The notes under the pieces were generated by a model, which was not told the DNA's origin, made no database searches, and was given only the letters and a program-made list of their open reading frames with translations. DNA of 34,738 bases from positions 1 to 34,738 of the IMG/VR virus record IMGVR_UViG_3300044798_000277. The stretch is one strand, 5' to 3'. This DNA is from a virus. This document shows positions 9,579 to 33,688 of the stretch, one piece after another. Position numbers and translations under genes: made by a program. Every line of letters starts with the position of its first letter. Position 1 is the first letter of the stretch.

Positions 9579-9581
9579 CAA

Positions 9582-9629: not shown

Positions 9630-9646
9630 CCCCCTTCGGAGGCGGC

Positions 9647-11114: not shown

Positions 11115-11128
11115 GAAAGGAGAACGAT

Positions 11129-11275
11129 ATGGGAATCAGTACGAAAGGCAATGCCAATACCAGGCCGGGAACCAAGAAGGGCGCGGCTCCGTCAGCAACG
11201 AGCAAGACCTTCGGCTCCAAGACCCAGTACGCTGAAGCCTCCAAGACGCACATCGCCATCAAAGGCAAGAAGTGA
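11129..11275 (+). CDS. small basic protein
   Basis: This 48-residue protein has a good RBS (AAAGGAG, 5 nt spacing) before ATG 11129. It is rich in Lys, Thr, Ser and Gly and contains no hydrophobic stretch, so it is probably unstructured or nucleic-acid binding. It ends in KGKK. I recognise no family. The RBS and the overlap of its stop with the next GTG (GTGA) support that it is translated. Confidence 0.55.
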   Translation: MGISTKGNANTRPGTKKGAAPSATSKTFGSKTQYAEASKTHIAIKGKK

Positions 11276-11679: not shown

Positions 11680-11680
11680 T

Positions 11681-14600
11681 ATGGCTGCGTATTATGTAGA
11701 ACCCAAGATTGCGACGACTGCCGCGTTAGGCGGTTCAATTTCCGGCGTCACTTTCACTGACACCCATCACGGATCTGGGAATTTTGCTGTTGGTCAATTC
11801 CTTACAGGTATTGGTGTAACTCCTTTTACATACATCACCCAGCTCATCTCTGGCGATGGTCATACTGACGGCAGCACATGGCGAGTAAGCATTTCGCAGA
11901 CCGTCACCGACCAGACTATCACTGGACATGGCGATATGATCGATGACGGTGCCGGGGCTTGGACAGCCGCCCTGAACATAGCGACGCCCTGCTCTGCACA
12001 AACGGCGATGGTTCATGCTGCTGGAGACGATATTGTTAATTTCCGTGGTTATCCCAATTATCAGCCCTATTTAACGCAGTATTATTCAGCGAATTGGCAA
12101 TGGCCTGGGATGTATCCAGCAAACAGTGGCACATTGAATCATTATATTACATTCCAGGCCTATACGGGTGAGCGACCTCAAATAACCGCGCAAACCGATA
12201 GTACAGGACTTAACGCTTTTGTCTTCGGTCCTTGGGCAAGAAGTTGGATTATCTTTGATGGTTTTGAATGTTGGGCGATTGTTCCTCCAACCCCAGAGCA
12301 TCCATTAGGAATAAGTATGGGTGGAATTAAGGTAGGACATAATAGTAACGCTCATCCTTATGATGATTCAACTCACTGTATAATTAGAAACTGTATTGCA
12401 CATGGAGGAGATGTGATCTGCCTCCTGGTGCAGAACAATAAGTGCTGCATACAAGTCAATACCGCTGGTGATATTCTGATAGAGAACTGTCTGTTTTATT
12501 TTTATGACAATGCGCTTAGACAGAGCCTTGGCCTTGCAGACTGGTGGACTGTTGACACTGCTACGAATAGCAATCATTGTGGTTGGCAGTCATATTACTG
12601 CGAGAGAATAACTGTTAAGAACTGCGAGATATATGACACTCCCGTGCCAATGTATTTTAAGACAGGATCGGAGGATGATTATGTTTTTTATAATAACTAT
12701 GTTCATGATTGTGGTGAAGGATGCTTTTATATAGGTTTGGGAACAGCGGGCTCGACATCTCATAACTGTTTAATATATAATAACGTATTTACATCAGAAA
12801 CATGGGCATGGGGTGGAGGTATTGTATCTGATTCTGATAGGGGTATTGCTGTAGATGGCTGGAAGATCTATAATAATACTATAAGATTAGCATCTACTAA
12901 TGTTGACGCTAATCTTATAACTCCTAAAAGGTTTACCAACTGGGAAGTATACAATAATATAGTTCTGGGAACACGTTCTGGTGTATATAACTTTCAGGAC
13001 AGTGCTTATTATGATTATGGATGCAGTATACTTAACGAAGATCATAATCAGTTCGGTCAGGCCGGAACCTATGGATTTCATATCAGACCGCGATGGAACG
13101 GAACCACCACTTATTCAATACTTGATCCAACGGTCCCGCCGGATGGCACATCATGGAAAGAGTCAACATGGCAAACCGATACTTCTGATGTGGGCTGTGG
13201 TGCTAACCCGAGTCATCATCCCGGCTGTAGTGATTTAAGATCAAATCCTCTCTTCACCAATGGGTCGGGTACTTATTCATTGCTTTCCGACTTCAATCTC
13301 CAAGTGGGGTCTCCCTGCTTAACAGGCGGCCGCGCTGGGGGCCTGATGGGTGCGAACATAGCCCTTGTGGGCTATAGTTCGGAGGAAGAAGTGACTTCTC
13401 CATCTGCTTCGCCCTCAGCATCGCCTTCGCCTACGGCTTCCTTGTCATTATCAGTATCGCCATCCCATTCGCCGTCTAAATCCCCCTCCGTCAGCCCCAG
13501 TCCGAGCTACTCGCCCTCGGCGAGCCCATCTGTGAGTCCTTCTTCTTCTCCTTCCTCCGGGTCGCCTCCCGCCTTGGATGTATTCTATTCCTGCAGCAAG
13601 TTTGGCACGGGCGATATAAAGACCGGCACTCCCAATGTTGTCATGTCGGGCAGCGTTGCCACGCTCGATGTTGCCCAGACCGGCAACATAGGGCGCGGGG
13701 ACCGCATCACCTATGAAACGCATCATTGCTTCATAAGCAATGTCAATTCTTCCACCTCGTTCGATGTGGTCGATGCCATCGGCGATCCCATTACCGACCA
13801 CGGATCGGTCGCCGTTGTCTCCATTGCGCATGAGTTCGCTTCCCTGGCGCTCGCATTGGCAGGCGCATCGGATGTCAATCATATCAACAACTCAAACCTG
13901 AACGCTGCCGATGTGCGGCTCTTTATCTATTGCTACTATGACCATGACGATTACACGGCGGACGGCTATGCGACCGTAAGCGGGTGGACGACCAGCGCTG
14001 GTTGCAATATCAACATCATCGTCCCGCGTGGCCCGACGTACAATGGCGGCTGCGAGTCCATCCTCAACAACCAGCATCCCGGCTATTGGGACACGACAAA
14101 GTATTACATTCGTGTGACAAGCGCCGATTATCGCTGTTTAACCATTTCATCGCAGCCATATACTTATGTCAGGGGCATCCAAGGAGACAATGCGGCAACA
14201 GCAGGTACCTCCTACACGGGAGTATTCAATACCAGCGGACTCACCACCACTGGTGTTATATGGGACTCATGTTATGCTCAGCATACCGGGACCGTCGGAA
14301 CAAACAGCTATTGCTTTGCTTACCCCAATATAACTGATGCATATGGAGATTCGGTCAAAATACGATTCATAAATTGCATAGCGTATAATCCAATCTATCG
14401 GGGATGGAGTGAACAGGCGAGTGCGAGTTACATCCATTTCCATTTCTACAACTGTCTTTCTGTGGATTGCGGAGGACAAGGTTATTACTCGTGGGGCGGC
14501 CCGGCGGCCTATAACTGTGTGGCCTTCGCTAATGTGGGCGCAAACTGGCCTGGAGGCATGTCCGGTGCCTATTGTGCCACCGACGACGGCACGGGTCCGG

Positions 14601-15301
14601 TAGCCAACCTTCTCGATATATCAGGGTTTGCCGGGGCTGCCATCTTCCTCGATTACGCCAATCATAAGTACGCTTCCTGCGTCGGTTCGCCGCTTATTAA
14701 TGCAGGCGACGATCTATCCGCCTGGATGACTGCCGAGGACTGCCTGGGCGTGCCGAGACCCGACCAGGCATGGGATATGGGTCCTTTCCAGTACCTCTCG
14801 GGGGGCACACCGTCACCGAGCGCCACTCCTTCCCCGAGCTATTCAGGATCGGCCTCGCCTTCGGTGAGTCCGTCGCCTTCGTACTCTCCTTCGGTTTCCC
14901 CCTCCGTCAGCCCATCCCCCAGCTATTCTCCCAGCGTATCGCCTTCGGCTTCTCCCAGCAAGAGCCCCTCAGCTTCGCCCAGCGTTTCACCTTCTCTTTC
15001 GCCCTCAGCCTCGCCCAGTTTAAGCCCCTCTGCCTCGCCGAGCGTCTCGCCTTCGGTGTCGCCAAGCGTGAGTCCCTCTTATTCCCCCTCGGCCTCGCCG
15101 TCGATCTCCCCCAGCAAGAGCCCCTCAGCCTCGCCCAGCAAGAGCCCATCTGTCAGTCCTTCGCCGAGCTACTCGCCAAGCCCATCCCGCAGCGCGTCGC
15201 CATCCCCATCCGAGGGAGCGCCGACTTCGAAGCTCATATGGATGTATAGTCAACCCCGCCGTTATCACCAGGCGGGCCGAAGAACAACCCAACACAGGTA
15301 A
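11681..15301 (+). CDS. giant fibre-like protein: two beta-rich (beta-helix-like) domains and Ser-Pro repeat arms
   Basis: This 1206-residue protein has five regions. Residues 1-570 are beta-rich with right-handed parallel beta-helix character (HCIIRNCIAHGG, ITVKNCEIYD, WKIYNNTIRL, WEVYNNIVLG). Residues 573-626 are an S-P-S-x array. Residues 627-1042 are a second such domain (VIWDSCYAQHTG, IRFINCIAYNP, FHFYNCLSVDCG). Residues 1043-1177 are a second array, and 1179-1206 a unique basic tail. The start is ATG 11681, 1 nt after the previous stop, with CGGAG upstream. There is no signal peptide or membrane span. The first domain is visibly more AT-rich than the flanking genes, suggesting separate acquisition. 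Beta-helix domains in phages usually bind or cut glycans; a virion fibre is the likely role (inference). Confidence 0.7.
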   Translation: MAAYYVEPKIATTAALGGSISGVTFTDTHHGSGNFAVGQFLTGIGVTPFTYITQLISGDGHTDGSTWRVSISQTVTDQTITGHGDMIDDGAGAWTAALNIATPCSAQTAMVHAAGDDIVNFRGYPNYQPYLTQYYSANWQWPGMYPANSGTLNHYITFQAYTGERPQITAQTDSTGLNAFVFGPWARSWIIFDGFECWAIVPPTPEHPLGISMGGIKVGHNSNAHPYDDSTHCIIRNCIAHGGDVICLLVQNNKCCIQVNTAGDILIENCLFYFYDNALRQSLGLADWWTVDTATNSNHCGWQSYYCERITVKNCEIYDTPVPMYFKTGSEDDYVFYNNYVHDCGEGCFYIGLGTAGSTSHNCLIYNNVFTSETWAWGGGIVSDSDRGIAVDGWKIYNNTIRLASTNVDANLITPKRFTNWEVYNNIVLGTRSGVYNFQDSAYYDYGCSILNEDHNQFGQAGTYGFHIRPRWNGTTTYSILDPTVPPDGTSWKESTWQTDTSDVGCGANPSHHPGCSDLRSNPLFTNGSGTYSLLSDFNLQVGSPCLTGGRAGGLMGANIALVGYSSEEEVTSPSASPSASPSPTASLSLSVSPSHSPSKSPSVSPSPSYSPSASPSVSPSSSPSSGSPPALDVFYSCSKFGTGDIKTGTPNVVMSGSVATLDVAQTGNIGRGDRITYETHHCFISNVNSSTSFDVVDAIGDPITDHGSVAVVSIAHEFASLALALAGASDVNHINNSNLNAADVRLFIYCYYDHDDYTADGYATVSGWTTSAGCNINIIVPRGPTYNGGCESILNNQHPGYWDTTKYYIRVTSADYRCLTISSQPYTYVRGIQGDNAATAGTSYTGVFNTSGLTTTGVIWDSCYAQHTGTVGTNSYCFAYPNITDAYGDSVKIRFINCIAYNPIYRGWSEQASASYIHFHFYNCLSVDCGGQGYYSWGGPAAYNCVAFANVGANWPGGMSGAYCATDDGTGPVANLLDISGFAGAAIFLDYANHKYASCVGSPLINAGDDLSAWMTAEDCLGVPRPDQAWDMGPFQYLSGGTPSPSATPSPSYSGSASPSVSPSPSYSPSVSPSVSPSPSYSPSVSPSASPSKSPSASPSVSPSLSPSASPSLSPSASPSVSPSVSPSVSPSYSPSASPSISPSKSPSASPSKSPSVSPSPSYSPSPSRSASPSPSEGAPTSKLIWMYSQPRRYHQAGRRTTQHR
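13397..13558 (+). repeat. Ser-Pro tetrapeptide array 1
   Basis: The stretch encodes about 54 residues of irregular S-P-S-x units between the two beta domains of the large fibre protein. It acts as a flexible or extended linker. Different Ser and Pro codons are mixed, so the DNA copies are imperfect. Confidence 0.9.
14807..15211 (+). repeat. Ser-Pro tetrapeptide array 2
   Basis: The stretch encodes about 135 residues of S-P-S-x, with x mostly A, V, L, K, I or Y, and a recurrent SPSPSYSPS. It is the C-terminal arm of the large fibre protein. It leads into the conserved tail beginning GAP. Confidence 0.92.
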
Positions 15302-15312
15302 GGAGGTATTAA

Positions 15313-15645
15313 ATGTCAGCATATACTGTAACAGTGCCGATCACCGGGACGATCTCCGACGCCGTTCCCAGCGGTCAATACGTCATTGGTTTATACATCC
15401 CGACCATCGACAACAGCATCGTGTACCTGCAGGCATCTCAGGACGGTGTGACCAACTGGGCTCGCATCCTCAAGTCGGACGGGTCCGCCGATTGGAACGT
15501 GGCTGTCAGCACGGGCAACAAGTGGATCTTTCTCGATCAGATGTCACCCTTTACGTACCTGCGGATCGAATGCGCAGCGGCTCAGAATACTGCGGCGCGC
15601 CAGTTCATCTTCGTATTCAAGCCGAACATCGAGGGCAACGTCTGA
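15313..15645 (+). CDS. small beta-sandwich virion-type protein
   Basis: This 110-residue protein has a perfect RBS (AAGGAGGT). The sequence is a series of beta strands: ITGTISDAVPSG, IVYLQASQDGVTNWARI, FTYLRIECA, RQFIFVFKP. This layout (two short conserved blocks, one around LQAS.DG..W and one around YLRI) is familiar from small uncharacterised phage proteins found near head or tail genes. No catalytic motif is present. It lies between the first Ser-Pro fibre gene and the sugar-enzyme genes and overlaps the next start by one base. It could cap or attach the fibre. Confidence 0.6.
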   Translation: MSAYTVTVPITGTISDAVPSGQYVIGLYIPTIDNSIVYLQASQDGVTNWARILKSDGSADWNVAVSTGNKWIFLDQMSPFTYLRIECAAAQNTAARQFIFVFKPNIEGNV

Positions 15646-16562
15646 TGCTGAGCGTCCTCATCCCTTCCCGGAACGAGCGGTTCCTCGTGCATACCGTGGC
15701 GGATCTCCTGAGCAAGGCGAATGGAGAGATAGAGATCATCGTCGTCCTGGACGGCTATTGGCCCGACGTGAAGCTCCTGGAGGATTCGCATGTAACCCTC
15801 CTCCATAGGCCGGTGTCGTACGGGATGAGGAATGCCATCAACTCGGCTGCTGCTATCGCCAAGGGCGATTACGTCATGAAGTGCGATGCGCATTGCATGT
15901 TCGGCCAGGCGTTCGACGAGATCCTAGCGGCAGAATGCGGAGACAACGAGATCATCATCCCCCGGCGCTACAGTCTGGAACCCGAGACCTGGGAGATCAG
16001 GGAGACGGGCCGCCCTCCCATCGACTATGAGTTCATCAGTTTCCCCTACGAGATGAACGTCCAGACCGTGCGCGTCGGGAACAAATGGTGGGAACGGGGA
16101 GTCGCAAGAGCTGATGTTCTCGTGGATGAGAATATGACCTGCCAGGGCTCCTGCATGTTCATGTCGAAAAAGCACTTCATGAATATCGGCCCCCTGCAGG
16201 AAGAGGGCTATGGAACCTTCATCCTCGACAGCGAGGAAGCCACGAATAAGACCTGGACGAGCGGCGGCAGGGTCATGGTCAACAAGAAGACCTGGTACGC
16301 GCATCTGCACAAGGGCAACCAGTACGGACGCGGTTATTTCATCGACAAGCGGCCCTTGAAACGGGGGCGCAGATACCACATCGATTTCTGGATGCACGAC
16401 CGCTGGCCTAAGCAGACGCGCAAGTTCGAGTGGCTGGTGGAGCATTTCTGGCCTATTCCAGGCTGGCCCGAGGACTGGCGAGATCCTCGCTACGAAAAGG
16501 CATATCTGGAGTCGTTGGATGGGGACCCTGGAATACATCAAGCAGAAGTATCGCCTGGATGA
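15645..16562 (+). CDS. GT2-type glycosyltransferase
   Basis: This 305-residue protein has a GT-A core: LSVLIPSRNE at the N-terminus, IEIIVVLDGYWPD at about 29-41, and MKCDAHC at 78-84, where D81-A-H83 stands at the DxD position. The downstream block SGGRVMVNKKTWYAH is shared with the glycosyltransferase at 18819, so the two are paralogues. No membrane helix is present, so it is a soluble cytoplasmic enzyme. ATG 15645 overlaps the previous stop (TGATG). It overlaps the methyltransferase gene by 44 nt. Donor and acceptor are unknown; the neighbouring Ser-rich fibre is the obvious candidate acceptor. Confidence 0.87.
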   Translation: MLSVLIPSRNERFLVHTVADLLSKANGEIEIIVVLDGYWPDVKLLEDSHVTLLHRPVSYGMRNAINSAAAIAKGDYVMKCDAHCMFGQAFDEILAAECGDNEIIIPRRYSLEPETWEIRETGRPPIDYEFISFPYEMNVQTVRVGNKWWERGVARADVLVDENMTCQGSCMFMSKKHFMNIGPLQEEGYGTFILDSEEATNKTWTSGGRVMVNKKTWYAHLHKGNQYGRGYFIDKRPLKRGRRYHIDFWMHDRWPKQTRKFEWLVEHFWPIPGWPEDWRDPRYEKAYLESLDGDPGIHQAEVSPG

Positions 16563-17178
16563 CGGCCCCTCTCCCATCGAGATCAGAGATACCAACCGTG
16601 ATGATCTTGGAGAATTATTCAGGGAGCTGGGGTTCACCAGGGGGGCGGAGATCGGCGTCTGCTGCGGGGACTTCTCTGAGCAACTGTGCAAAGACATTCC
16701 TGGTTTGCACCTGATTTGCATCGATCCCTGGATCGTCTACGAAAACTACTTCGATTACATGATACAGGATACCCTCAACGAAGCCTACGGGATGGCTCAG
16801 GAGAAGCTGAAAAACTATGATTGTGAGCTGGTCCGCAAGTTCAGCATGGATGCGGTCAAGGATATTCCCGACGGTTCTCTGGACTTTGTCTACATAGACG
16901 GCAACCATTCCCTCGACAACGTCATAAACGACCTCACCCAGTGGAGCAGGAAGGTCCGCAAGGACGGCATTGTCAGCGGGCATGACTATAGAAGCCTTCC
17001 GCGCAGATACCGATTGCATTTCCAAGTCGTCGAGGCGGTGAACGTCTTTACGAGGGTCAATGAAATAAACCCCTGGTTTCTGCTGGGCCGCACCAAGTCG
17101 CTGCCGGGCGAGAAGAGGGACAAGGAACGAACCTACTTGTGGGTAAAGAAGAATGAAAGCGGCCCATATCTCAGCTAA
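16519..17178 (+). CDS. class I SAM-dependent methyltransferase (Methyltransf_24 type)
   Basis: This 219-residue protein has the SAM-binding motif I AEIGVCCGDF at 43-52, an acid after the next strand (ICIDPW near 71-76) and the later motif DFVYIDGNH at 122-130, typical of the Methyltransf_24 family of sugar and cell-envelope methyltransferases. The start is ATG 16519 with GGAG about 7 nt upstream, well inside the end of the previous glycosyltransferase gene. It probably O-methylates a sugar, perhaps capping a glycan. The context of glycosyltransferases on both sides supports this; the substrate is not visible. Confidence 0.87.
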   Translation: MGTLEYIKQKYRLDDGPSPIEIRDTNRDDLGELFRELGFTRGAEIGVCCGDFSEQLCKDIPGLHLICIDPWIVYENYFDYMIQDTLNEAYGMAQEKLKNYDCELVRKFSMDAVKDIPDGSLDFVYIDGNHSLDNVINDLTQWSRKVRKDGIVSGHDYRSLPRRYRLHFQVVEAVNVFTRVNEINPWFLLGRTKSLPGEKRDKERTYLWVKKNESGPYLS

Positions 17179-17803
17179 TCTGTGCGCTCGCATGACGGAG
17201 ATCGTGGATCTTCCGCAAAAACTGCCGGAAGACGTCAGCCTGGATACATACCTGTTTACCGAGAAGAACTATTCCATCAGAACACAGGCGATGACCATCC
17301 GATTGCAGGTGTCGATCATCAAGATGTTCGGATGGCAGATGGTGCCCGATTACGACATCTATATCTGGACGGACATAGACTTTAGGATGATTCGGGATGA
17401 TTCGATTGCTTGGCTACTGGATCACCTCGGCTCGGACGACATTGTATTTTTCAGGCATCCGAAACGCAGTACGATCAGGGAGGAGGCGGAGTTTCTCCGG
17501 TACAATGTACCCCGCAAGGAAGAATTGAAGTCGAGATACAACAGGGAGCTCCTCGAAGAGCAGATGCAGGCCATCCCCGAGTCAGACAAGGACGCTTTCC
17601 TGCTGGCGTCCGGGATATATGCATACCGCAACAATGACAGGATTCACCGCTTCATGAAGGAGTGGTGGTATCACACCTCGCGCTTCCATATCAATAACCA
17701 GCTCTCTCTGCCGTATGTCTTGAAGACAAGCGATTGCACGTACAGCATCATCGCTGACGACATCTATCATTGCAAACACTTCGGTTTCTACAGGGTGAAG
17801 TGA
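17153..17803 (+). CDS. DUF616/TOD1-like glycosyltransferase
   Basis: This 216-residue protein contains YIWTDIDFRM with D74-I-D76, a DxD-type metal site, in the setting I associate with the DUF616 (TOD1/MUCI70 glycosyltransferase-like) family. Supporting blocks are DDIVFFRHPKR near 97-107, a RDEAEFLRYN-like segment (REEAEFLRYN), and RFHINNQLSLPYVLK near 178-192, where family members have a DQxSLPY-like block. The protein is short and lacks a membrane anchor. ATG 17153 overlaps the methyltransferase gene by 26 nt; ATG 17192 (MTEIVD) is an alternative. It is presumed to add a sugar to the same glycan as its neighbours. Confidence 0.7.
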   Translation: MKAAHISANLCARMTEIVDLPQKLPEDVSLDTYLFTEKNYSIRTQAMTIRLQVSIIKMFGWQMVPDYDIYIWTDIDFRMIRDDSIAWLLDHLGSDDIVFFRHPKRSTIREEAEFLRYNVPRKEELKSRYNRELLEEQMQAIPESDKDAFLLASGIYAYRNNDRIHRFMKEWWYHTSRFHINNQLSLPYVLKTSDCTYSIIADDIYHCKHFGFYRVK

Positions 17804-18819
17804 TGGACTGGAAATATCCCGAGATCAGAGAAGGCGAACCGACCAAGTACGGCTGGATGGTTCAGCACGTAGACAACTTCCACCTGGGATACATGACCGA
17901 CATCGGCGCATTCACCTATATAAACGCGAAGCATAGCGTCATCATCAAAGACTTCGTGCAGATCGGTTCGCACTGTTCGATCTATACCATATCATCAATC
18001 GACGGCAAGGAGGGGATCGTACTGCTGAAGAAGAACTGCAAGATAGGATCTCACAGCACGATCATGCCGGGAGTGACGATAGGCGAAAACGCTATTGTCG
18101 GGGCGCACAGCTTCGTCAACAGCGATGTTCCGGACAACGCGGTTGCCTACGGAATACCGGCTGCCGTTCAGAGCGGGACCGAAGGATCTTCGGAGGGTGT
18201 TTATAAGATCAACGAACTATTCGAGCAGGAGCTTTCCCGCTACACCGGCGCACCCTATGTTGCCCTGATCGATTGTCAGAGCAACGCCCTCTTCTTGGCG
18301 CTGACCTACGAGGGAATAGCCGGGAAGACGATCACCATCCCGGCCAGGACCTATCCGTCTGTTCCGTGCGAGATCATCCATGCCGGAGGAAAGGTCAAGT
18401 TCAGTCCGGTTGAAGGGACGACCCTGAAGGGTGCGTACCGGCTGGAGCCGACGAAGGTGTGGGATTCTGCGCTGCGGTTCACCCCCGATATGTATATCGC
18501 CGATTCGCATATGTGCATATCGTTCACGGGACCGTACAAGCATCTCAAGTTGAGCAAGGGCGGCGCTATCCTGACGGACGATTACAAGGCGTGGCTCTGG
18601 TTCCGAAGGGCGCGGTTCTCGGGAAGACGGGAATGCTCCTATCATACGGACAATCTGGATATGCTGGGTTGGAATTTCCTCATGACCCCCGAAACAGCGC
18701 TGCGAGGGCTCCTGATGATGCGGCAGTTCTACGATGCGCAGGGCAATCCCAAGCACAACGAGGATCTGGATTTGCCGTACCCGGACCTCAGCAAGTTCCC
18801 CGTCTATACGGAGGCATGA
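17803..18819 (+). CDS. fusion of hexapeptide acyltransferase and short DegT-type aminotransferase
   Basis: This 338-residue protein has residues about 25-122 as a left-handed beta-helix acyltransferase (IGAFTYINAKHSVIIKDFVQ, IGSHSTIMPGVTIG, ending AVAYGIPA). Residues about 128-335 follow the DegT/DnrJ/EryC1/StrS pattern: CQSNALFLAL for the usual GTSAL block, PARTYPSVP, WDSAL with D221 where the PLP-ring Asp lies, and SFTGPYKHLKLSKGGAIL. In the last, K246 sits seven residues before the conserved GG, as the Schiff-base lysine does. It is only about 210 residues against the usual 370-400, and the Gln/His after the Asp motif is missing (Leu). It may be active on a nucleotide keto-sugar or be a degenerate binding domain. 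ATG 17803 overlaps the previous stop. Confidence 0.78.
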   Translation: MDWKYPEIREGEPTKYGWMVQHVDNFHLGYMTDIGAFTYINAKHSVIIKDFVQIGSHCSIYTISSIDGKEGIVLLKKNCKIGSHSTIMPGVTIGENAIVGAHSFVNSDVPDNAVAYGIPAAVQSGTEGSSEGVYKINELFEQELSRYTGAPYVALIDCQSNALFLALTYEGIAGKTITIPARTYPSVPCEIIHAGGKVKFSPVEGTTLKGAYRLEPTKVWDSALRFTPDMYIADSHMCISFTGPYKHLKLSKGGAILTDDYKAWLWFRRARFSGRRECSYHTDNLDMLGWNFLMTPETALRGLLMMRQFYDAQGNPKHNEDLDLPYPDLSKFPVYTEA

Positions 18820-20474
18820 TGCCTGACCTTTCCATCCTCATCCCGGCCCGCAACGAGATGTTCCTGGGCAAGACCATCGAGAACATCCTCGAGAACATCG
18901 AGGGTGACACCGAGATCATCGCCGTCTGTGACGGCTATTGGCCGGTTCCGGGCATCAACGACCATCCGAGGGTCAGCCTCATACACTACACCGAGTCGGT
19001 CGGCCAGCGCAGGGCAACGAACGATGCGGCCCGGCTTTCCAGGGCGAAGTACATCATGAAATGCGATGCGCACTGTGCCTTCGACAAGGGCTTCGATGTG
19101 AAGCTCATGGCCGACATTGAGTACGACTGGACGGTCGTGCCGAGGATGTATAACCTGCACGGCTTCGACTGGCAGTGCAAACAATGCGGCAACCGCACCT
19201 ACCAGGGACCGACCCCGACCAAGTGCATGAAGTGCGAAGGCACGCAGTTCGAGCGGGTCATCGTATGGCAGCCGCGCCTCAATAGACTGTCCGACTTTGC
19301 CCGCTTCGACAAGGATATGCACTTCCAGTATTGGCAGGACTATCGCAAGCGACCGGAGTCCAAGGGCGAGATCGCCGACCTCATGTGCCATGTCGGGGCC
19401 TGCTGGATGATGCACCGGGAGCGGTTCTGGGACCTCGGCGGCATGGATGAGAAGCATGGCTCCTGGGGACAGATGGGCGTGGAGGTTTCCTGCAAGACCT
19501 GGCTCTCCGGGGGACGTCAGGTCGTCAATAAGAAGACCTGGTACTCGCATATGTTCCGCACACAGGGGGGAGACTTTGGATTTCCCTACCACCTCTCGGG
19601 TCACGACGTCGATAAAGCGCGGGCATACTCGAAAGATATGTGGTTGAATAACAAATGGCCGCTTGCAAAACATAATCTGCAATGGCTGCTCGATAAATTC
19701 GCCCCAGTTCCCGGTTGGGACGTACAATCTAGCACACCCGCCGTAAAGAATGCAGCCTTGAGCACTACAGGGGCAAAGGGAGTGGTGTACTATACCGACA
19801 ATAGGCTGGACAGCGATATAATGGACGTTGTTCAGCAGCAAATCTTGAAATGTTGCAACAGCCATCCGATAGTGTCGGTTTCTCTTACACCTATCGATTT
19901 CGGCAGAAATATCGTTCTTCCGATGGAGCGGGGCATTTTGACCATGTTCAAGCAGATCCTCGCCGGGTTGGAGGCCATCGATGCGGAGATAGTTTTCTTC
20001 TGCGAGCATGACGTACTCTATCATCCCAGCCACTTCGATTTCACGCCGCCGAGGAAAGACGTGTTCTACTACAATGAGAACACCTGGAGGGTCGATTATG
20101 AATCGGGGCAAGCGCTCTTCTACTACTGCCGACAGACCTCGGGTCTTTGTGCCTACAGGGACTTGCTCATTGAACACTACCGCAAACGTACCGAAAGAGT
20201 TGAACGGGACGGTTACGATCGACGCATCGGATACGAACCAGGGTCTCATCAGTTCCCTCGGGGAATCGATAATTACATATCGGACAAGTACTGGTCGGAG
20301 TTCCCCAACATAGACATCCGGCATGGCGGCAATCTGACGCGGAGCCGCTGGAGCCAGGATCAATTCAGGGACAAGAACACCTGTCTCGGCTGGACAATGG
20401 CGGACGAGGTTCCTTACTGGGACAGAACCAAGGGACGATTCAAAGAACTGCTGGCGGTGCTGAACAATGGGTGA
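18819..20474 (+). CDS. two-domain glycosyltransferase: GT2 with zinc ribbon plus second GT-like domain
   Basis: This 551-residue protein has an N-terminal domain (1 to about 290) that is a GT2 parallel to the 15645 gene: [28 protein letters not shown] with D83, and [15 protein letters not shown] four-cysteine zinc ribbon is inserted at C120/C123/C136/C139. The C-terminal domain (about 305-551) starts [13 protein letters not shown] and carries [14 protein letters not shown] (E396-H-D398) as a second possible metal and sugar-nucleotide site. It therefore looks like a bifunctional or polymerising enzyme. ATG 18819 overlaps the previous stop and has CGGAG upstream; ATG 18816 is equally possible. 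It overlaps the next, Ser-Pro-rich gene by 8 nt. Confidence 0.85.
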
Positions 20475-22779
20475 CTCGGGCGTAAAATATCCGGGGACGG
20501 TCGCTGGCACCATTGGCGATAACGACTGGACAAATGCGGATGCCGCGCATCTTGCCGCCGATGATACCAGTTATGCAACCTGCGCTGTACCAAAAACAGA
20601 ACATACATCATTACTTCTTTGCACCAACTTTTCTTTCAATGTTCCGTCTTACGCTACAATAACCGGCATTAAATTAGAATATCAAGTAAAATGCGGTACC
20701 GCAGGGAAGATGACCGATGGAGGTATTTATCTTCCTTTAGGAGAATCAACAGATCACTCCGATTATGGAACATATTATCCCGCCAGCGATACCACATACA
20801 CAAAAGGCGGCGATGGCGACATGTGGGGTCTGACTTCAGCCACACTGACGCCTGCCGTTGTTAACAATGTTGATTTTGGTATTAAGTTTTTTGCCTTAAA
20901 TACAGATACTTTATTCAACAGAACCGTCTCGATGGATTTCCTGCGGGTTACGGTCTACTGGTCGCCGAACACGCCGAGTTTGAGTCCCTCCCTCAGCCCC
21001 AGCGCATCACCTTCAGTCTCCCCCAGCGTCAGCCCCAGCCCGAGCTACTCCCCGTCAGTCAGTCCCTCAATATCGCCCAGCGCTTCACCCAGCGTTAGCC
21101 CGAGCGTTTCACCCTCGCCCTCGTATTCGCCGAGCCCCTCCCCGAGCATCAGCCCTTCAGCCAGTCCTTCGGCCTCACCCTCGGTCAGCCCGAGCCCATC
21201 TTACTCACCTTCGATCAGCCCGTCAGCTTCGCCATCGGTCAGCCCTTCCCCTTCGTACTCACCCTCGGTTTCCCCGAGCAAAAGTCCTTCGGCTTCGCCA
21301 TCAGTCTCCCCGAGTGTTTCACCTTCGCCGAGTTACTCACCAAGCATATCGCCATCGGTCAGCCCGAGCGTAAGCCCAAGTCCGTCATATTCTCCTTCGG
21401 TCTCACCATCCCTCAGCCCGAGCGCCTCGCCATCGGTCTCACCATCCGTAAGCCCCAGTCCTTCGTATTCACCGAGTGTTTCGCCATCGCCGTCCCCCAG
21501 TGCTTCTCCGAGTGTCAGTCCCTCGGTATCGCCATCCCCCAGCTATTCCCCGTCGGTATCGCCGAGTCTGAGCCCATCGGCTAGTCCGAGCATAAGCCCC
21601 AGCGTTAGCCCCAGTCCGAGCTATTCTCCGTCGATAAGCCCGAGCATATCGCCCTCGGTCAGTCCAAGTCCTTCGTACTCCCCGTCCGTCAGCCCTTCAG
21701 TTTCACCAAGCAAATCACCCTCAGTATCGCCGTCAATCTCACCGTCAGTTTCACCTTCTCCGTCATATTCCCCATCAGTCTCGCCCTCGGTCAGCCCAAG
21801 CGCGAGCCCCTCAATCTCCCCGAGTATTTCACCGAGTGTGTCGCCCTCGCCCTCTTATTCACCCTCAAGGTCCCCTTCTGCCAGTCCTTCGATTTCCCCG
21901 AGCCTCAGCCCCTCGGCCAGTCCGAGCGTCAGTCCGAGTCCCTCTTATTCACCTTCAATATCGCCTTCATTGAGTCCTAGCCTCAGTCCTTCAGTCTCGC
22001 CAAGTGTTTCACCCAGCATCTCCCCCAGCGCTTCACCATCGGTCAGCCCCTCCCCGAGTTACTCTCCGAGTGTCAGCCCCAGCATCTCGCCCAGCGCCAG
22101 CCCGTCATTGAGCCCGAGTATATCTCCGAGCGCATCCCCTTCAATTTCCCCCAGCCTCAGCCCAAGCGTTTCGCCCTCGGTTTCCCCTTCCCCGAGTTAT
22201 TCGCCGTCGGTTTCCCCGAGTTTAAGCCCCAGCCTCAGCCCCTCAGCTTCACCTTCGCCTTCCGCGGGAGGCGTCAGTCCGAGTGCATCACCAAGTGTTT
22301 CACCGTCGGTAAGTCCAAGTGCTTCGCCGTCGGCTTCGCCCTCGATCTCGCCGAGCGTCTCTCCGTCTCCCTCGTATTCCCCGTCCATATCCCCTTCCAT
22401 CAGCCCTTCGGCCAGCCCTTCAGCGTCGCCAAGTGTGTCGCCTTCGGTAAGCCCTTCAAAAAGCCCCTCGGCCAGCCCGAGCGTCAGCCCCTCGATTTCG
22501 CCCAGCATTTCACCTTCGGCGAGTCCAAGTGCGAGTCCTTCGCCGTCCGCTAGTCCGTCCGCGAGTCCTTCCATTTCACCGAGCGCCTCGCCCTCAATAT
22601 CGCCGAGCCCGAGTTATTCGCCGTCGAGGTCGCCGTCGAGGTCGCCCTCATATTCGCCCTCAGCCTCGCCTTCACCGTCCGCCGGAGCCCCGAGCAGAAG
22701 GCGATTCTTCATGGTGGAACCCCAGAGATGGCTCACCGGGGGCAGGAGAACCTTCCACGGTCATCCGATAAGAAGATAA
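20467..22779 (+). CDS. mucin-like Ser-Pro repeat protein with N-terminal beta domain and conserved C-tail
   Basis: This is a 770-residue protein. Residues 1-166 are a beta-sandwich domain of a type frequent in phage and bacterial surface proteins ([18 protein letters not shown], then [20 protein letters not shown] and [11 protein letters not shown]). Residues 170-738 are an almost pure S-P-S-x array, interrupted once by SAGGVSP near 599-605. Residues 740-770 form a basic tail resembling the tail of the 11681 protein. There is no signal peptide or membrane span. It follows directly the two-domain glycosyltransferase with an 8-nt overlap. A long, extended, Ser-rich rod like this is an expected target for O-glycosylation. 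Function as a fibre or stalk is inferred. Confidence 0.7.
20974..22680 (+). repeat. Ser-Pro tetrapeptide array 3 (about 569 residues)
   Basis: The array encodes P-S-x-S units with x drawn from A, V, I, L, K, R, P and Y. A higher-order unit of SPSPSYSPS followed by several S-x-S-P units recurs through the array. All six Ser codons and all four Pro codons are mixed, so the protein pattern is far more regular than the DNA. One break at about 22261-22275 (SAGGV) resembles the SAGAP that ends the array, as if two arrays had been joined. Confidence 0.95.
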
Positions 22780-25699: not shown

Positions 25700-26175
25700 T
25701 AATGCAGCCGCCCCCAATCAAAGACCCACTGTTCGGAACGCCGGAGAGCATCATTTCGTCCGTGCCCTGGATCATGTGGCTCAGCAGATTGGGGGGAACA
25801 CGCATCAATGCCTACAGGCTGACATGGGATATGGCGACTGCATCCGGGGCCGTCGTCATCACTGACATAGGCTTCATGCCTTCCGTATGCATTCTCATTG
25901 CCTACGGAGGTACAGGCACGGGTGGCCGCTACATGGGTGCCTCATGGGGCATATCCATCGGCAATGTAATCGTGTCCTGTGTTTACAGTGTAACGGCAGA
26001 GCAGCCGGGACAATGGGCTGGAAACGGGACAAGGCTCGGCAGATTACTTCAGGCTGCGGGGGCCAGCGTTTACTGCGACATAAACTCCTTTCAACCGGAT
26101 GGCGCAGAGGTGTATTTCACCAAGGATGGATTGCCCGTAGGAACTAGTGTTTGGACATTCATTTTCTTTGCATAG
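25696..26175 (+). CDS. hypothetical protein in the gp26 position
   Basis: This 159-residue protein overlaps the gp10-like gene by 4 nt with GAGG upstream. It is a beta-rich, Gly-rich sequence with VVITDIGFMPSVCILIAYGG and VWTFIFF. In P22 the tail needle gp26 is encoded here, but this protein has no coiled coil or heptad pattern and is not a needle by sequence. It could be a small tail-tip beta protein. Function is unknown. Confidence 0.6.
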   Translation: MIMQPPPIKDPLFGTPESIISSVPWIMWLSRLGGTRINAYRLTWDMATASGAVVITDIGFMPSVCILIAYGGTGTGGRYMGASWGISIGNVIVSCVYSVTAEQPGQWAGNGTRLGRLLQAAGASVYCDINSFQPDGAEVYFTKDGLPVGTSVWTFIFFA

Positions 26176-26182
26176 GAGCGAT

Positions 26183-26647
26183 ATGATTATACGTGAAGCA
26201 ACGGCCTCAGACATTATTGACATAGTATCGAAGACCATGCGGCCAGGTGACAAGACGCCGTTCATCGCGCAGCGCGTCATTCCCATCGATGGCACCGCGA
26301 CGGCGCTTGCGCTCAACATCCTCATAACTAACCCACAGAAGAACAGTGTGGTGTTCGTTGCCGAGGATGAACTGGACGGCATTGTGGGTGCCCTGGGAGG
26401 ACACATCGAGCCGTATATGTTCAACCGGCAGTATCTCATCGCACGCGAAGACTTCCGGCAGGCCCTCGTTGGCGCGAAAGTCACCTGGAAGCTCATCACC
26501 GCCTTTGAGGACTGGGCCAAGACACACGGCGTAAGCGCTGTCCTGCTCTTTGAGCGCACGTCATACACGATCAAGTCCCTGGAGCCCTACATGGAGAGCC
26601 TGGGATACAAACTGCTTGAGAGGTCATATCTCAAGGAGGTGATATAA
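26183..26647 (+). CDS. GNAT-like N-acetyltransferase
   Basis: This 154-residue protein with RBS AGGAG opens with MIIREATASDI, the standard first strand-helix of GNAT enzymes. It has a VVFVAEDELDGIVGALGGHI pair of strands in the centre, then a long helix (LITAFEDWAKTHG) and the last strand YMESLGYKLLERSYLKEV. The acetyl-CoA loop (R/Q-x-x-G-x-G/A) is not clearly preserved, so activity is uncertain. Similar GNAT-like proteins are found in the structural region of several phages. It occupies the place of P22 gene 14, and its stop overlaps the next start. Confidence 0.7.
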   Translation: MIIREATASDIIDIVSKTMRPGDKTPFIAQRVIPIDGTATALALNILITNPQKNSVVFVAEDELDGIVGALGGHIEPYMFNRQYLIAREDFRQALVGAKVTWKLITAFEDWAKTHGVSAVLLFERTSYTIKSLEPYMESLGYKLLERSYLKEVI

Positions 26648-27450
26648 TGGGAACGACAGCGGCGATAGTTGGCGCATCAGCCCTTGGTGGAACGCTTGGA
26701 TTGCTTGGTTCAGAAATGCAGTCGAGTGCGATAGAGAAGGGGGCTGCTACATCATCGGACGCGACAAAATATGCAGCCGAATTGCAATATGCAATGTGGC
26801 AGGAACAGCAGAGAATGATGAAGCCCTGGCGCACAGCCGGGGAATCAGCGTTGAATAAGTTATCTGCCGCCGGGATACCGTCTTTTTATCCCGATCAATA
26901 TAAGCTAGATCCCGGCTATCAGTTCCGTCTTGAGCAGGGCGTCAACGCCTTGAATGCTTCGGGCGCGGCAGGCGGCTACCTCGGTTCCGGCAACCTGGGA
27001 ACGGCGCTTGTGGGCTATGGACAGGAGCTCGGCTCCCAGGAGTACCAGAACGCCTACAACCGTTATATGAACGAGCAGAATACTTATTATAACCGTCTGG
27101 CTGGTATAGCAGGCATTGGTCAAACGTCATCTGAATACCTGGCTGGTGCAGGAGGCACGGCAGCCGCGAACATGGGCAACCTGGCCGTGGGCGGTGCGAA
27201 CGCCCTGGCTGCGGGTCAGACAGGCGCGGCAAATGCGTGGGCGGGGGGCATACAAAACCTAAGCAATCAATTCATGGGCGGTCTTGGTACCTATCTCAAC
27301 TACCAGCAGCAGCAGCAGATGATCAACGCCTTGAAGATGAATCAAGGTTACTCGCCTTATTCCTCTTATGTTGCAGGCAACCCCGCCTACGACTCGTGGA
27401 ACTCATGGGACTATTCCGGGACCCCCGTTGTTGGCGGGGGGACATGGTGA
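26647..27450 (+). CDS. P22 gp7-like DNA ejection (internal virion) protein
   Basis: This 267-residue protein has a strong RBS (AAGGAGGT). An N-terminal hydrophobic Gly/Ala segment (TAAIVGASALGGTLGLLG) is followed by an EQQRMMKPWRTAGESALNKL helix. The family hallmark DPGYQFRLEQGVNALNASGA starts near residue 88, and YGQELGSQEYQNAYNRYMNE with its LAGIAGIGQ follow. P22 gp7 (229 residues) is ejected into the host with the DNA. The C-terminus is Gln/Tyr/Ser-rich. It heads a three-gene block with the length pattern of P22 7-20-16. Confidence 0.8.
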   Translation: MGTTAAIVGASALGGTLGLLGSEMQSSAIEKGAATSSDATKYAAELQYAMWQEQQRMMKPWRTAGESALNKLSAAGIPSFYPDQYKLDPGYQFRLEQGVNALNASGAAGGYLGSGNLGTALVGYGQELGSQEYQNAYNRYMNEQNTYYNRLAGIAGIGQTSSEYLAGAGGTAAANMGNLAVGGANALAAGQTGAANAWAGGIQNLSNQFMGGLGTYLNYQQQQQMINALKMNQGYSPYSSYVAGNPAYDSWNSWDYSGTPVVGGGTW

Positions 27451-28949: not shown

Positions 28950-30862
28950 TGCCGATTCAAGTCCAAATTGAAGGCCGGGGCGCTGTTGCCGAGTTTCCAG
29001 ACGGCACCGATCCGAAGGTAGTCCAGGCTACCGTCAAGAGGATACTTTCGGGAGGAGAACGCACCGCTGCCGGTGATATGTGGCAAATGGCAAAGAACTT
29101 TCCCGGCGACGTTTACCGGCTCGGCAAGGAGTCTATCGAGGGGGTCAAGGCATTCCCCGCCGGACCTTTGATAATGCCAAGAACAGCGGGGCGTTTATTC
29201 GAGGCCGGACGCGGTTTTGTGCAGGCTGCTCCTGAAATGGCGAGAGAGGCTGGATCTGCCGCTTTGCAGGCTGCTCAGCATCCCATAGCAGCCGCCCAGC
29301 AGGGACTTGAGGCGGCAAAGGGCTATGCGATAGAACACCCTGCTCATTTGGCTGCCATGTTCCTCCCCGCTGGACCAGCGGCAGGCAGAGCCGCGGCCAA
29401 GGGTGCGGTCAGGGGGATGGTATCGGAGAAATTGCCCGCCCATTTGTATGAGTCGGGTGCCAAGTGGAGCACGGTTCTCAAGCCTGCGACACGAAAAGAG
29501 ATAACCGGCACCTTGCTGAAAGAGCGCATCCCTTTGAATCCGGCTGGATATGACAAACTGGCTGGCACAATCGATGCTATCCAGGAACAAGTCAGTGCTG
29601 TTCTGGCACCTGTCAAGGATGTTCAGGTCAGTCCCTTCAGAGTGCTTTCGCGGCTGAAACCGGCACTGGAAAGAGCCCGCAAAACTCTGAACCCCAACGA
29701 AGCCCTCGCTCAGATCGGCAAAGAGGTTGATGAATTTTTAGAGAACTGGGGCAGCGGCAACCTGACCGTTGAGAATGCCCACGAGGTCAAGAAGGACATC
29801 TACAGGCAGATAAAGAAGCACTACGAGGCAGCCAATAAGGTTGCTACAGGACTTTATACAGACGGAGAAGTGGCAGCCAAGAAAGCCATAGCACGAGGCC
29901 TCAAGGAGGAGATTGAGAAGATCACGGGCGGTGACATCATCAAGAATCTGCATGACCGAGAATCCAAGCTCCTCCGTGCGGAGCCCCATCTGGCGCGTGC
30001 GATTGGCCGCGTCAGCAACCTTAATATGTATAGCTTGGACGATGTGCTTGCGACTATCGCAGGGGCTACAATCGCCGGAGGTCCTGGAGCTGGTGCTGCC
30101 GCCCTGCTCAGCCATTTCTTCGGTATGCCCGCCATGAAATCCAAGATCGCCATCATGCTCAAAGGCTGGCGCGATTGGGCAACTACCCTGCCTCCCAAGT
30201 TAAGAGGGGAAGCTGAGACTATCCTGAACAATGCGGCCATGCAGGACACCAAGAAAATAGATTTTCTGAGCGACCTGTCAAGGAAGGCTCCCAGGATAGC
30301 CGGGCCTGCTGCTCAACCGACCGTAACCGGACCACCTGCTCCAAGGGCTTTACCTGCTCCGCAGAAGTTCACCATGCGACCAGCTGGATCGCCCCCGGTT
30401 GTACGCAGACCGTACCCTGAATCGACTGGTCAGATGGTCGGGGAATACCCCGAGGTCGTGATGAAGGGCGCGAAGAATAACATCCTTGGAAGCGATCTCG
30501 AAGTCGCAGCGCGCATCAAGGGCGATATACAGGCTGCAAAGGCGGGCAAGCGAACTCCTCTGCCTGATGGTACTTGGACGGGACAGGGATCTACCTGGCC
30601 CGATTATCTGAAAGGCGGAGGCTACACGGCGAAGCATCTCAACCGCATCATCGACAAGGCCCTCGCGGGCGAGAAGCTGACCGAACTGGAACGGAGGAAC
30701 TTCAACACCATTGTCAAGGCCAAGCTGGCAGAAGAAGAGGAAATGATTGCGGCAATGAACAAGAACGCCCTGGCCGGACCCATGAATGAGATCCCCACCA
30801 CCGGGGGAAGGGCGAGAGGCATTCTGGATGTTCTGAGAGACCAGGTAGGAGATAGACGATGA
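28949..30862 (+). CDS. probable ejection protein in the gp16 position
   Basis: This 637-residue protein opens with VQIEGRGAVAEFPDGTDPKV, similar to the FPDGT-type N-terminal motif seen in other ejection proteins. It has Ala-rich helices at 60-150, a long charged helical section and one glycine-zipper hydrophobic segment near 368-390 (TIAGATIAGGPGAGAAALL) that could insert into the host membrane. P22 gp16 (609 residues) has the same place and size and partly lyses membranes. The C-terminal 150 residues after a Pro-rich hinge are a separate basic helical part. It overlaps the following gene by ATGA. Confidence 0.62.
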   Translation: MPIQVQIEGRGAVAEFPDGTDPKVVQATVKRILSGGERTAAGDMWQMAKNFPGDVYRLGKESIEGVKAFPAGPLIMPRTAGRLFEAGRGFVQAAPEMAREAGSAALQAAQHPIAAAQQGLEAAKGYAIEHPAHLAAMFLPAGPAAGRAAAKGAVRGMVSEKLPAHLYESGAKWSTVLKPATRKEITGTLLKERIPLNPAGYDKLAGTIDAIQEQVSAVLAPVKDVQVSPFRVLSRLKPALERARKTLNPNEALAQIGKEVDEFLENWGSGNLTVENAHEVKKDIYRQIKKHYEAANKVATGLYTDGEVAAKKAIARGLKEEIEKITGGDIIKNLHDRESKLLRAEPHLARAIGRVSNLNMYSLDDVLATIAGATIAGGPGAGAAALLSHFFGMPAMKSKIAIMLKGWRDWATTLPPKLRGEAETILNNAAMQDTKKIDFLSDLSRKAPRIAGPAAQPTVTGPPAPRALPAPQKFTMRPAGSPPVVRRPYPESTGQMVGEYPEVVMKGAKNNILGSDLEVAARIKGDIQAAKAGKRTPLPDGTWTGQGSTWPDYLKGGGYTAKHLNRIIDKALAGEKLTELERRNFNTIVKAKLAEEEEMIAAMNKNALAGPMNEIPTTGGRARGILDVLRDQVGDRR

Positions 30863-31242
30863 CATGGGAAGAATACTACCAGACCGACCCGTTCAGCTTT
30901 TTCCACCATTTGAAAAATGTGTTGATGTGGGGCACCCCCGAAGGAGAAGGTACAGGTGGTTACTACCCGGAGAATCAAAATGCGCTGGCTGCTCCTTATA
31001 GTGGGACAGCGAGGAGAGAAAATCCCTACCGGGAAACCATACCGTACTATGGGCCGGAGTATAACAATGCGCTGGCCTTTGCAGCTCCTGGATATGCAAG
31101 ACAATGGTACTTGAGAAGGCCCGGCAATGTCTCAGGCTGGATCACTGAACATCCCGATGGCACGTTGAGCTGGGAACCGGACGACTTGGGAGATTTATGG
31201 GAATCCCCATCGAAGAAGAAGTCGGATGAGCCTAAAAGATAA
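30859..31242 (+). CDS. hypothetical protein
   Basis: This 127-residue protein with GGTAGGAG upstream is rich in Trp, Tyr, Pro and Gly. It contains two similar segments, YYPENQNALAAPYSGTARR near 40-58 and YYGPEYNNALAFAAPGYARQ near 63-82, which look like an internal duplication of a Y-N-x-A-L-A motif. No known domain was found. It lies between the ejection block and the ATP-grasp gene, overlapping the latter by 17 nt. Confidence 0.6.
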   Translation: MTWEEYYQTDPFSFFHHLKNVLMWGTPEGEGTGGYYPENQNALAAPYSGTARRENPYRETIPYYGPEYNNALAFAAPGYARQWYLRRPGNVSGWITEHPDGTLSWEPDDLGDLWESPSKKKSDEPKR

Positions 31243-32473
31243 ACACGTCCTCGTCTACGACCTGGGCCTCTTCACGGAACAGTCCTTGAGGCTCCTGCGC
31301 GACGTGGCTGAGGTCAAATACTTCGTGCCGTGGGTATCAGCCTTCCCCGAGATATTCAGGGAGAAGATCGGCGAGGGTCTGGACGGCCTCGAGCGCGTGG
31401 ACTACTTCTGGGATCATGTCGATAAGGCCGACATGATATTCGTTCCCGATACGCATTGCTCGGACATAGTGCAGTTCCTCCGCCGGCATGAATACCCGGT
31501 GGCCGGTGTCGGTTCTGCGGAGCGCTTGGAGCAGGATAGATGGTACGGCAGGACGCAACAGAAGGAGAATGGTCTGCCGGTGCAGGAAACGCACCGGATC
31601 GTCGGCATCGACGCCCTCATGGAGTTCTGCAAGACGCATAAGAACTTCCATATCAAGATCGATACCTTCCGGGGCATCGAGGAGTCTTTCCTCCATATCG
31701 ACTTCCACCAGAGCGAAAGCACGATCTATAAGATGGCGCATACCCTCGGTCCCTACAAGGAAGACATCGTGTTCCTGTGCGAGGAAGACATACCAGGGGT
31801 GGAGCCGGGCCTGGATGCGATCACCTGGGAAGGCGAGCTCATCTATCCCTGCATGGTCGGCTATGAGAGCCCCGGCACGGGCATCGTCGAGCATACCGTG
31901 CAGACGCTTAATGACATGCCTCTGGCGCTTCAGATCATCGATGAGGGTCTCGCTCCAGCCTTCAGGGAGCACAAGATGCGCTTCTTCTACTCGGCGGAGA
32001 TCAAGATCGGCCCTGACCGCATCCCCTACCTCATAGACCCGACGATGCGCATGGCCGCACCGGGCACCTCCGCCATTCAGTGCGAGCTCATCGAGAATTA
32101 CACCGAGGTCATCTATGGCCTGGCAACGGGCGAGAAGGTGATCCCCGTCATCAAGCACAAGTACGGTGCGGCCCTGCCAATGAATACAGAAGAGGGCGGC
32201 AAGGAATGGGTCAACATCGGCTTCCCGGAGGACATGCGCAAGTGGGTCAAGCTCCGCATGGCGGTCAAGAAGGACAAGGATTATTACATGGTGCCCGGCT
32301 TCGAGAGCGCGGGGTGCGTTATCGGCTTCGGCGAAACCGTTGAGGAGGTCATCAACGTGGTGAAGGAGAGGGCCAATGAGGTCAAAGGCAAACGCCTCAA
32401 CAAGGAGCCCACAGGATTCGATGGCATCGCCGAGCATATTGAGGAAGGCAAGAAGTACGGAATCCCTTTCTAG
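31226..32473 (+). CDS. ATP-grasp ligase-like protein (PurD-type fold)
   Basis: This 415-residue protein has an N-terminal Rossmann-like part (KHVLVYDLG, ADMIFVPDTHCSDIVQFLRR, VAGVGSAERLEQDRW) followed by the ATP-grasp fold. FHIKID with K144 is a candidate ATP-binding lysine. FLCEEDIPG and EGELIYP follow, and YLIDPTMRM (D271-x-T273-x-R275) stands where ATP-grasp enzymes have E-x-N-x-R. The organisation recalls glycinamide ribonucleotide synthetase, but no purine genes are nearby. Family members catalyse ATP-dependent carboxylate-amine ligation. In this place it may modify a virion protein or host component. Start ATG 31226 has a poor RBS. Confidence 0.75.
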   Translation: MSLKDKHVLVYDLGLFTEQSLRLLRDVAEVKYFVPWVSAFPEIFREKIGEGLDGLERVDYFWDHVDKADMIFVPDTHCSDIVQFLRRHEYPVAGVGSAERLEQDRWYGRTQQKENGLPVQETHRIVGIDALMEFCKTHKNFHIKIDTFRGIEESFLHIDFHQSESTIYKMAHTLGPYKEDIVFLCEEDIPGVEPGLDAITWEGELIYPCMVGYESPGTGIVEHTVQTLNDMPLALQIIDEGLAPAFREHKMRFFYSAEIKIGPDRIPYLIDPTMRMAAPGTSAIQCELIENYTEVIYGLATGEKVIPVIKHKYGAALPMNTEEGGKEWVNIGFPEDMRKWVKLRMAVKKDKDYYMVPGFESAGCVIGFGETVEEVINVVKERANEVKGKRLNKEPTGFDGIAEHIEEGKKYGIPF

Positions 32474-32482: not shown

Positions 32483-33688
32483 ATGTCGCAGACATCTTTA
32501 ATGCCCATGCCGAAGTTGCAGTTCTTCAACAACAACGGCCTCCCGCTCGCCGGCGGATTCGTCTACACGTACCAGCCGGGCACTATGATAGCCAAGCCTA
32601 CCTATACGCTCAGCTCCGGCCTGGTTGCCAACCCGAACCCCGTTGTACTCGACAGCGCAGGCAGGCCGCCGAACAATATCTGGCTGAGCGGCTACTACGC
32701 CATCTACCTCTATGACTCGCTCATGAACCTGATTTGGTCCGTGGACAACGTATCCTCGATGCCTTCATATATCTCTGGAGCGCAGTGGATACCCCAGCCG
32801 CTTGTCTACACGTACATCGGCACCACGCAGTTCTCCACGCCCGGTGACTACACGACCCTGTTCACGGTGGGATCGAGGATCTCTGCAACCGTGACCGCCG
32901 GGACTATCTATGGTACCGTCACTGCGAGCACGTACGGGGCACCGATTACCACCGTGACCTGCATGTGGGATGCGGGCGCACTCGATGCTGGCCTGTCGGC
33001 TGTCTACACCGGCATCATCACAACGGCTCCGAATGCCATGCCCGTTATTAGACCCATAGAATATACAGTCAACCAAGTATTCACCGTTGCGCGCATGAAT
33101 GGGACGTATATTGCGAACCTGGCGACTGCCATATCTTTCACCTTGCCACCGGCAAACACGATCCCTTCGGGCGGATGGTTCAAATTCATCAATAAGGGTA
33201 CCGGTCCTTTGACTGTAGTGGGCACGGTCAGCGGCATCGCAAGCCCGTTTTTGAATATATACGATGAAATCACCTGTGTTTCTGATGGGACACAGTGGTA
33301 TGGTATATTGGTCCAGGCTGGCCCCGCTGAACTGTATGCTTATGGAGCCACAGCCGTGACAGCTCTTAACATGGGCACTGTATATCCCTCCGAAAGATGG
33401 CTTGTTGAAATATCCGTTAATCTAAGCTGGACTGGTGCGCCGGTTACAGTGTGCAGAATGGATACAACAGGCGCAGGAACGGCGACATTTTTATGGACCA
33501 ACGGCACGACAACTTCTTCAGAAAAAATGCCGATTGACACAGGGATAGCTACTTATGTAATAAAATCTGATGTTTTGAGAATATCTGCCGTCGGCACGTT
33601 GACCATAACGAATACTATTACTCCCACGGGTGGAGGTCTTATCACCTATACGCACAACGATATATTTGCCTACAGGCTACGGCATTAA
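32483..33688 (+). CDS. tail spike/fibre with conserved virion-binding N-terminus
   Basis: This 401-residue protein with RBS AGGAGAAG begins MPKLQFFNNNGLPLAGGFVY, TYQPGT, then NPVVLDSAGRPPNNIWLSG and IWSVDNVS. This is the conserved N-terminal head/tail attachment region of many podovirus spikes and fibres. The remainder is beta-rich and has no clear enzymatic motif. The C-terminal 130 residues, from about base 33300, are visibly AT-richer than the front, consistent with exchange of a receptor-binding tip. It lies after the ejection genes, as spikes do in P22-like phages. Confidence 0.78.
   Translation: MSQTSLMPMPKLQFFNNNGLPLAGGFVYTYQPGTMIAKPTYTLSSGLVANPNPVVLDSAGRPPNNIWLSGYYAIYLYDSLMNLIWSVDNVSSMPSYISGAQWIPQPLVYTYIGTTQFSTPGDYTTLFTVGSRISATVTAGTIYGTVTASTYGAPITTVTCMWDAGALDAGLSAVYTGIITTAPNAMPVIRPIEYTVNQVFTVARMNGTYIANLATAISFTLPPANTIPSGGWFKFINKGTGPLTVVGTVSGIASPFLNIYDEITCVSDGTQWYGILVQAGPAELYAYGATAVTALNMGTVYPSERWLVEISVNLSWTGAPVTVCRMDTTGAGTATFLWTNGTTTSSEKMPIDTGIATYVIKSDVLRISAVGTLTITNTITPTGGGLITYTHNDIFAYRLRH

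Follow-up and report, generated by a model that had tools for sequence, protein, structure and literature searches.

A PurD-like family of probable ATP-grasp ligases found almost only in phages and carried among virion genes

The stretch of virus DNA analysed here (34,738 bases, the window) carries one copy of a gene, at 31226-32473 on the + strand, whose 415-residue product, P0001, belongs to a widespread and unnamed family of PurD-like ATP-grasp ligases that is almost confined to phages, most of them uncultured. The reading that we favour, with a probability of roughly 0.55, is that P0001 is a late-expressed accessory carboxylate-amine ligase of PurD fold, which would act on substrates other than those of GAR synthetase. 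The PurD-like signal of this open reading frame (ORF) is well above chance, given a family that can be followed over its full length and the strong purifying selection seen in all close pairs (dN/dS of 0.04-0.23).

A profile is needed to see this likeness, since P0001 alone has no significant family match. The single sequence finds nothing significant in Pfam, PHROGs, NCBIfam or the PDB sequence set (its best sequence-level L-amino acid ligase match, LAL_C2, stands at 0.05), tblastn returned nothing from 50,697 phage records, even at E 10, or from 72,556 plasmid records, and six exact 8-mers used as a homologue search found none. Homologues were fetched from IMG/VR with a degenerate DNA pattern for Y[LIV]IDPTxRxxxP, which gave 69 loci (64 of which encode a homologue by tblastn), and a profile-based scan of IMG/VR gave 86 loci. 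An alignment of 42 sequences (A1), whose members are 24-67% identical and recognisable over their full length, yields a profile that matches PurD structures in the PDB (2yw2 at 3e-11, 5vev at 1.2e-9 and 1vkz at 6.3e-8), and the purD model TIGR00877 is matched by 23 of the 42 members (best value 1.3e-11), P0001 itself giving no match. Pfam, PHROGs and NCBIfam hold no model for the family, and no description of it was found in a literature search outside which lay the original text of Iyer et al. 2009. A scan of 84,980 cellular genomes, run with a closer alignment (A3) that distant cellular relatives may have escaped, gave two matches, on small phage-like contigs of 18.6 and 9.8 kb. Both contigs carry phage genes; the virion module of one (L261) matches that of the window, and the other (L262) is judged to be nearly identical to a viral locus (L040). 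PurD-like matches in Listeria, Acinetobacter and faecal 'phage' records were set aside, being ordinary PurD that probably comes from the hosts. The tree described below includes 95 or more distinct sequences of the family, whose genes lie in virion modules across a wide variety of uncultured phages.

The fold is predicted to be that of PurD, in line with the first-pass annotation of this DNA, which had called the product a PurD-like ATP-grasp protein and proposed fold prediction as a check. AlphaFold2 run with A1 gave a full-length PurD-type model (pLDDT 95.4, pTM 0.92); a single-sequence model (pLDDT 37.8) was discarded. Foldseek placed PurD entries on top (E 4e-20), the top PDB matches being all ATP-grasp proteins, and structure matches in a viral library were much weaker (best 9.5e-10). 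In VIA-align, the model matches PurD 2yw2 with a Z of 31.9 over 375 residues (3.0 A, 15% identity), Z being about 25 for PurT and PurK and about 23 for biotin carboxylase. Since the structure matches to PurD run over the full length, P0001 as modelled has all PurD domains, including a C-terminal PurD-type (GARS_C-like) domain at residues 313-415 (32162-32470, + strand) that also shows when the profile is aligned with 2yw2 and 1vkz. Small-molecule ligases such as PurD, PurT, PurK and biotin carboxylase typically have N, lid and C domains of this PurD type.

Alignment with PurD allows the residues that are invariant in the 42 sequences (K144, R149, G150, E193, G195, D197, E214, E258, Y268, I270, D271, P272, T273, R275 and P279) to be set in the frame of a known active site (all coordinates are on the + strand). 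In the N domain, a D-L-G-L-F motif (residues 12-16, 31259-31273) stands at the phosphate-binding position of PurD GGREHA, the N-terminal phosphoribosylamine-binding motif, where P0001 reads GLFTEQ. Invariant K144 (31655-31657) pairs with the lysine of PurD VIKADG and would, by analogy, be the ATP-binding lysine; invariant R149-G150 (31670-31675) fall at the PurD glycine-rich loop, with RGIEES where PurD has LAAGKG; and invariant E193 (31802-31804) pairs with the GxE of PurD EEFLxGEE. E214-S-P216 (31865-31873) occupy the position of PurD DHK, next after which comes the GPNTGGMG substrate loop, deleted in clade 1 of the tree. Residue 216 is a nearly invariant lysine in the clade and a proline in the window copy, which could therefore be altered or weakened. 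The motif Y-L-I-D271-P-T273-M-R275-x-x-x-P279 (32027-32062) stands against E-x-N-x-R-x-x-D-P in PurD (E-F-N-x-R as aligned), so that the D-x-T-x-R reported at first pass in place of E-x-N-x-R is indeed present, as D-P-T-M-R at residues 271-275. Thirteen positions ahead of D271, at a spacing usual for ATP-grasp metal ligands, lies E258 (31997-31999), an invariant first acidic residue at the canonical position of a metal ligand, where PurD has no acidic residue; E258, D271 and T273 are the predicted metal-site residues. The invariant catalytic lysine, these metal-site residues and the low dN/dS make it probable that P0001 is active as a ligase.

In a tree of 102 rows, built by a quick method and with few PurD rows (four), 82 phage sequences form clade 1 (support 100), another 13 form clade 2, also of phage sequences (support 99), and the four PurD form a third clade (support 100). 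Clade 2 has E-x-T-x-R, several of its members keep the GPNTG loop, and by these motifs it is intermediate between PurD and clade 1. Read as a series from PurD through clade 2 (E-x-T, loop in several) to clade 1 (D-x-T, no loop), the motifs suggest that a metabolic ligase has been shifting to another substrate inside phages. Because it stands in a separate and fully supported clade, has no GGREHA and has lost the GPNTGGMG loop, P0001 is on sequence grounds not a GAR synthetase, and the family tree with phage homologues, which had been proposed at first pass, shows no orthology to that enzyme. The clade-2 sequences include an unannotated PurD-like ligase at 8001-9332 of MW202796.1, a complete circular phage genome.

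The gene lies, as already noted at first pass, between ejection and tail-spike genes. A DNA ejection protein (26647-27450, + strand; phrog_598, 4.9e-36) is encoded upstream and a spike or fibre with a virion-attachment N-terminal domain (32483-33688, + strand) begins 9 nt past the ligase end; its place next to the ligase is kept in close relatives. The ligase start overlaps by 17 nt the 3' end of a 127-residue ORF (30859-31242, + strand), which has no homologue among the fetched loci and contains an imperfect internal repeat (ENQNALAAPYSGTARRENPY / EYNNALAFAAPGYARQWY). This ORF was considered as a putative RiPP/graspetide precursor, but small ORFs upstream of the ligase vary among relatives and, by eye, have no core peptide in common; the sequences covered include two such families. 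A GNAT-like acetyltransferase is encoded at 26147-26647 of the window, between Hc3 and the ejection genes (phrog_1249, 5.6e-6), and MW202796 and PBR31 have an annotated acetyltransferase in a comparable position.

Across 74 distinct loci, the ligase is mostly found beside terminase, portal, scaffold, ejection or spike genes, and its neighbours nearly always run in the same direction (68 of 69 on the upstream side, at a median gap of 1.5 nt, and 63 of 69 on the downstream side, at a median gap of 6 nt). One contig (3300038417_000596) carries two clade-1 paralogues, 64% identical, in two virion slots, one after the portal and the other after ejection genes. Rhodoferax phage P26218 has the gene order of the window (TerL, portal, scaffold, MCP, Ad3, Hc3, ejection, two internal proteins, spike), with only 156 bp at the place of the 127-residue ORF and the ligase, and in Xanthomonas phage PBR31 the spike follows directly after internal protein C. 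Since its slot is empty in P26218, the ligase gene is accessory in the virion module, and this empty slot in a cultured phage provides a defined contrast for the phages that carry the ligase.

PurD-type ATP-grasp enzymes use MgATP to phosphorylate a carboxylate, and an amine then attacks the acyl phosphate. P0001 is predicted to work in the same way, coupling a phosphorylated carboxylate to an amine, with a substrate pair that would be other than glycine and phosphoribosylamine because its N domain and substrate loop are conserved but not those of PurD. Its gene would be a moron-type accessory that sits in the late virion operon and is presumably expressed along with it. A common small molecule or a generic host target would be a likelier substrate than a particular virion protein, as the active site stays constant across unrelated virions, and in many relatives the ligase may work beside a small HExxE metalloprotein-like protein. 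Four points weigh against this accessory-ligase reading: (i) the proline at residue 216 could mean that the window encodes an altered or weakened member, (ii) with D in place of E and T in place of N at metal ligands, ATP might be turned over more slowly, (iii) neither the window nor its close relatives have the HExxE partner and (iv) a place among virion genes would fit a virion-protein substrate too.

This last point leads to an alternative that we consider unlikely, yet a real contender: the ligase would modify a virion or injected protein, attaching an amino acid or forming an amide bond on one of the ejection, portal or spike proteins while the particle is assembled. It is favoured by the location of most copies in the late module beside portal, terminase, ejection or spike genes, by the comparable slot of the clade-2 relative in MW202796, which sits after ejection-position genes, and by the contig with two copies in two virion slots. 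However, the neighbouring virion proteins differ in family (the portal is phrog_156 in c8 and the window, and phrog_113 in c11) while the ligase active site is fixed, cultured phages that share this virion module form particles without the ligase, and the fold is one of small-molecule ligases, not of RimK/TTL/R2K-type protein ligases. The first-pass proposal of a post-translationally modified virion protein thus keeps the virion-module position in its favour but is weakened by the unrelated portals and by the cultured phages without the gene.

The HExxE protein belongs to a family of ~130 residues with invariant HExxE, G, P, H and E (HExxE...H...E, alignment A2), represented by L108:9600-9977 and 18 others, near portal or terminase genes. 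It looks like a metalloprotein, with metal binding predicted from its motif, has no PDB match and gives only one weak match, to M78 peptidase (0.049). It adjoins or is near the ligase in 22 of the 74 loci, and the window and its subclade lack it. Used as bait, it recovered at least 80 loci (near-duplicates included). A ligase of clade 1 or clade 2 is present in at least 40 of them and is the direct neighbour in at least 31 (our own count). Since it occurs without the ligase in half of the sampled loci, some of which have short flanks, the pairing is, among loci gathered with the partner or the ligase as bait, an association and not obligate. An undescribed system, carried in virion operons, in which a ligase derived from PurD and remodelled at its active site, often together with an HExxE hydrolase or processing partner, would covalently modify virion or injected proteins is in our view doubtful.

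The accessory-ligase reading also has a specific form, in which P0001 would help to take over the host or to exclude superinfecting phages, for instance through a change in a cell-envelope or signalling metabolite. This would suit a gene that is accessory, phage-restricted and patchy across virion types, and a role of this type has been proposed for the amidoligase genes of phiEco32-like phages and for phage amidoligase and GATase (PMC10580990), but such comparable genes are early and not in the virion module (PMC3890496), and we regard this form as improbable.

Between the major head protein and Ad3, the window contains an insert of about 15 kb (7938-22779) with two GT2 glycosyltransferases, hexapeptide transferases, a methyltransferase, a DegT-type stretch and a beta-helix protein, which suggests a movable virion or surface glycosylation cargo. 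That the ligase contributes to glycan decoration, another first-pass idea, for example by placing an amino acid onto an amino sugar in a glycan of the virion or surface, could appeal to the glycosyltransferases, hexapeptide transferases, DegT-type aminotransferase stretch and methyltransferase at 9-20 kb of the window. However, L075, L078 and L023, which are the closest relatives, retain the ligase at 58-60% identity and have no gene of the insert, MCP being followed directly by Ad3 and their portal/scaffold/MCP-to-spike runs holding the ligase and no glycan gene, and the neighbours in other carriers are terminase and portal genes, not sugar genes. The ligase is therefore independent of the glycan system, and this very improbable link was rejected. 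Scarcely credible is a genuine or slightly diverged GAR synthetase boosting purine synthesis, for which PurD is indeed the best fold and profile match, but which is at odds with the separate clade (support 100), the absent GGREHA and GPNTGGMG, the change from E-x-N to D-x-T, the lack of a TIGR00877 match for P0001 and the window ORFs scanned, none of which is a purine gene (in agreement with the first-pass remark on nucleotide-metabolism genes), so that this purine AMG reading was rejected on motifs and tree.

Among known systems, PurD (TIGR00877) shares with P0001 the full-length fold, domain order, ATP lysine, GxE, motif arginine and GARS_C-like C domain, whereas P0001 is only 15% identical, falls in a separate clade, has neither GGREHA nor GPNTGGMG, carries D-x-T for E-x-N and has an extra acidic residue, E258. 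PurT, PurK and biotin carboxylase (Z 23-25) belong to the same ATP-grasp group, whose members have flanking domains at both the N and the C terminus, but they match less well than PurD and the ligase has no biotin, formate or AIR context. The R2K clade of ATP-grasp proteins (CDC123 relatives), for which protein modification has been predicted in phages (PMC4431377; PMC7824862), is also phage-encoded but is a separate ATP-grasp clade, set apart by the descriptions in these papers. The L-amino acid ligases (YwfE/BacD 3wo1 and B. licheniformis LAL 3vot) are ATP-grasp amine-carboxylate enzymes of similar architecture (Foldseek E about 7e-14), but their Foldseek match is below that of PurD and they are absent from the 50 VIA-align rows. 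A set of amidoligase, GATase and ATP-grasp genes was reportedly described in phiEco32/LUZ24-type phages by Iyer and colleagues in 2009. No amidoligase or GATase match was found among the window ORFs scanned (about 30 against PHROGs and 17 against Pfam). This set, seen in UFV-P2 as ORFs 23, 25 and 28, shares with the window a phage-encoded ATP-grasp protein, but its member is of about 290 residues and lies in an early module with amidoligase and GATase (PMC3890496), whereas the window ligase is a PurD-type protein of 415 residues carried in the virion module.
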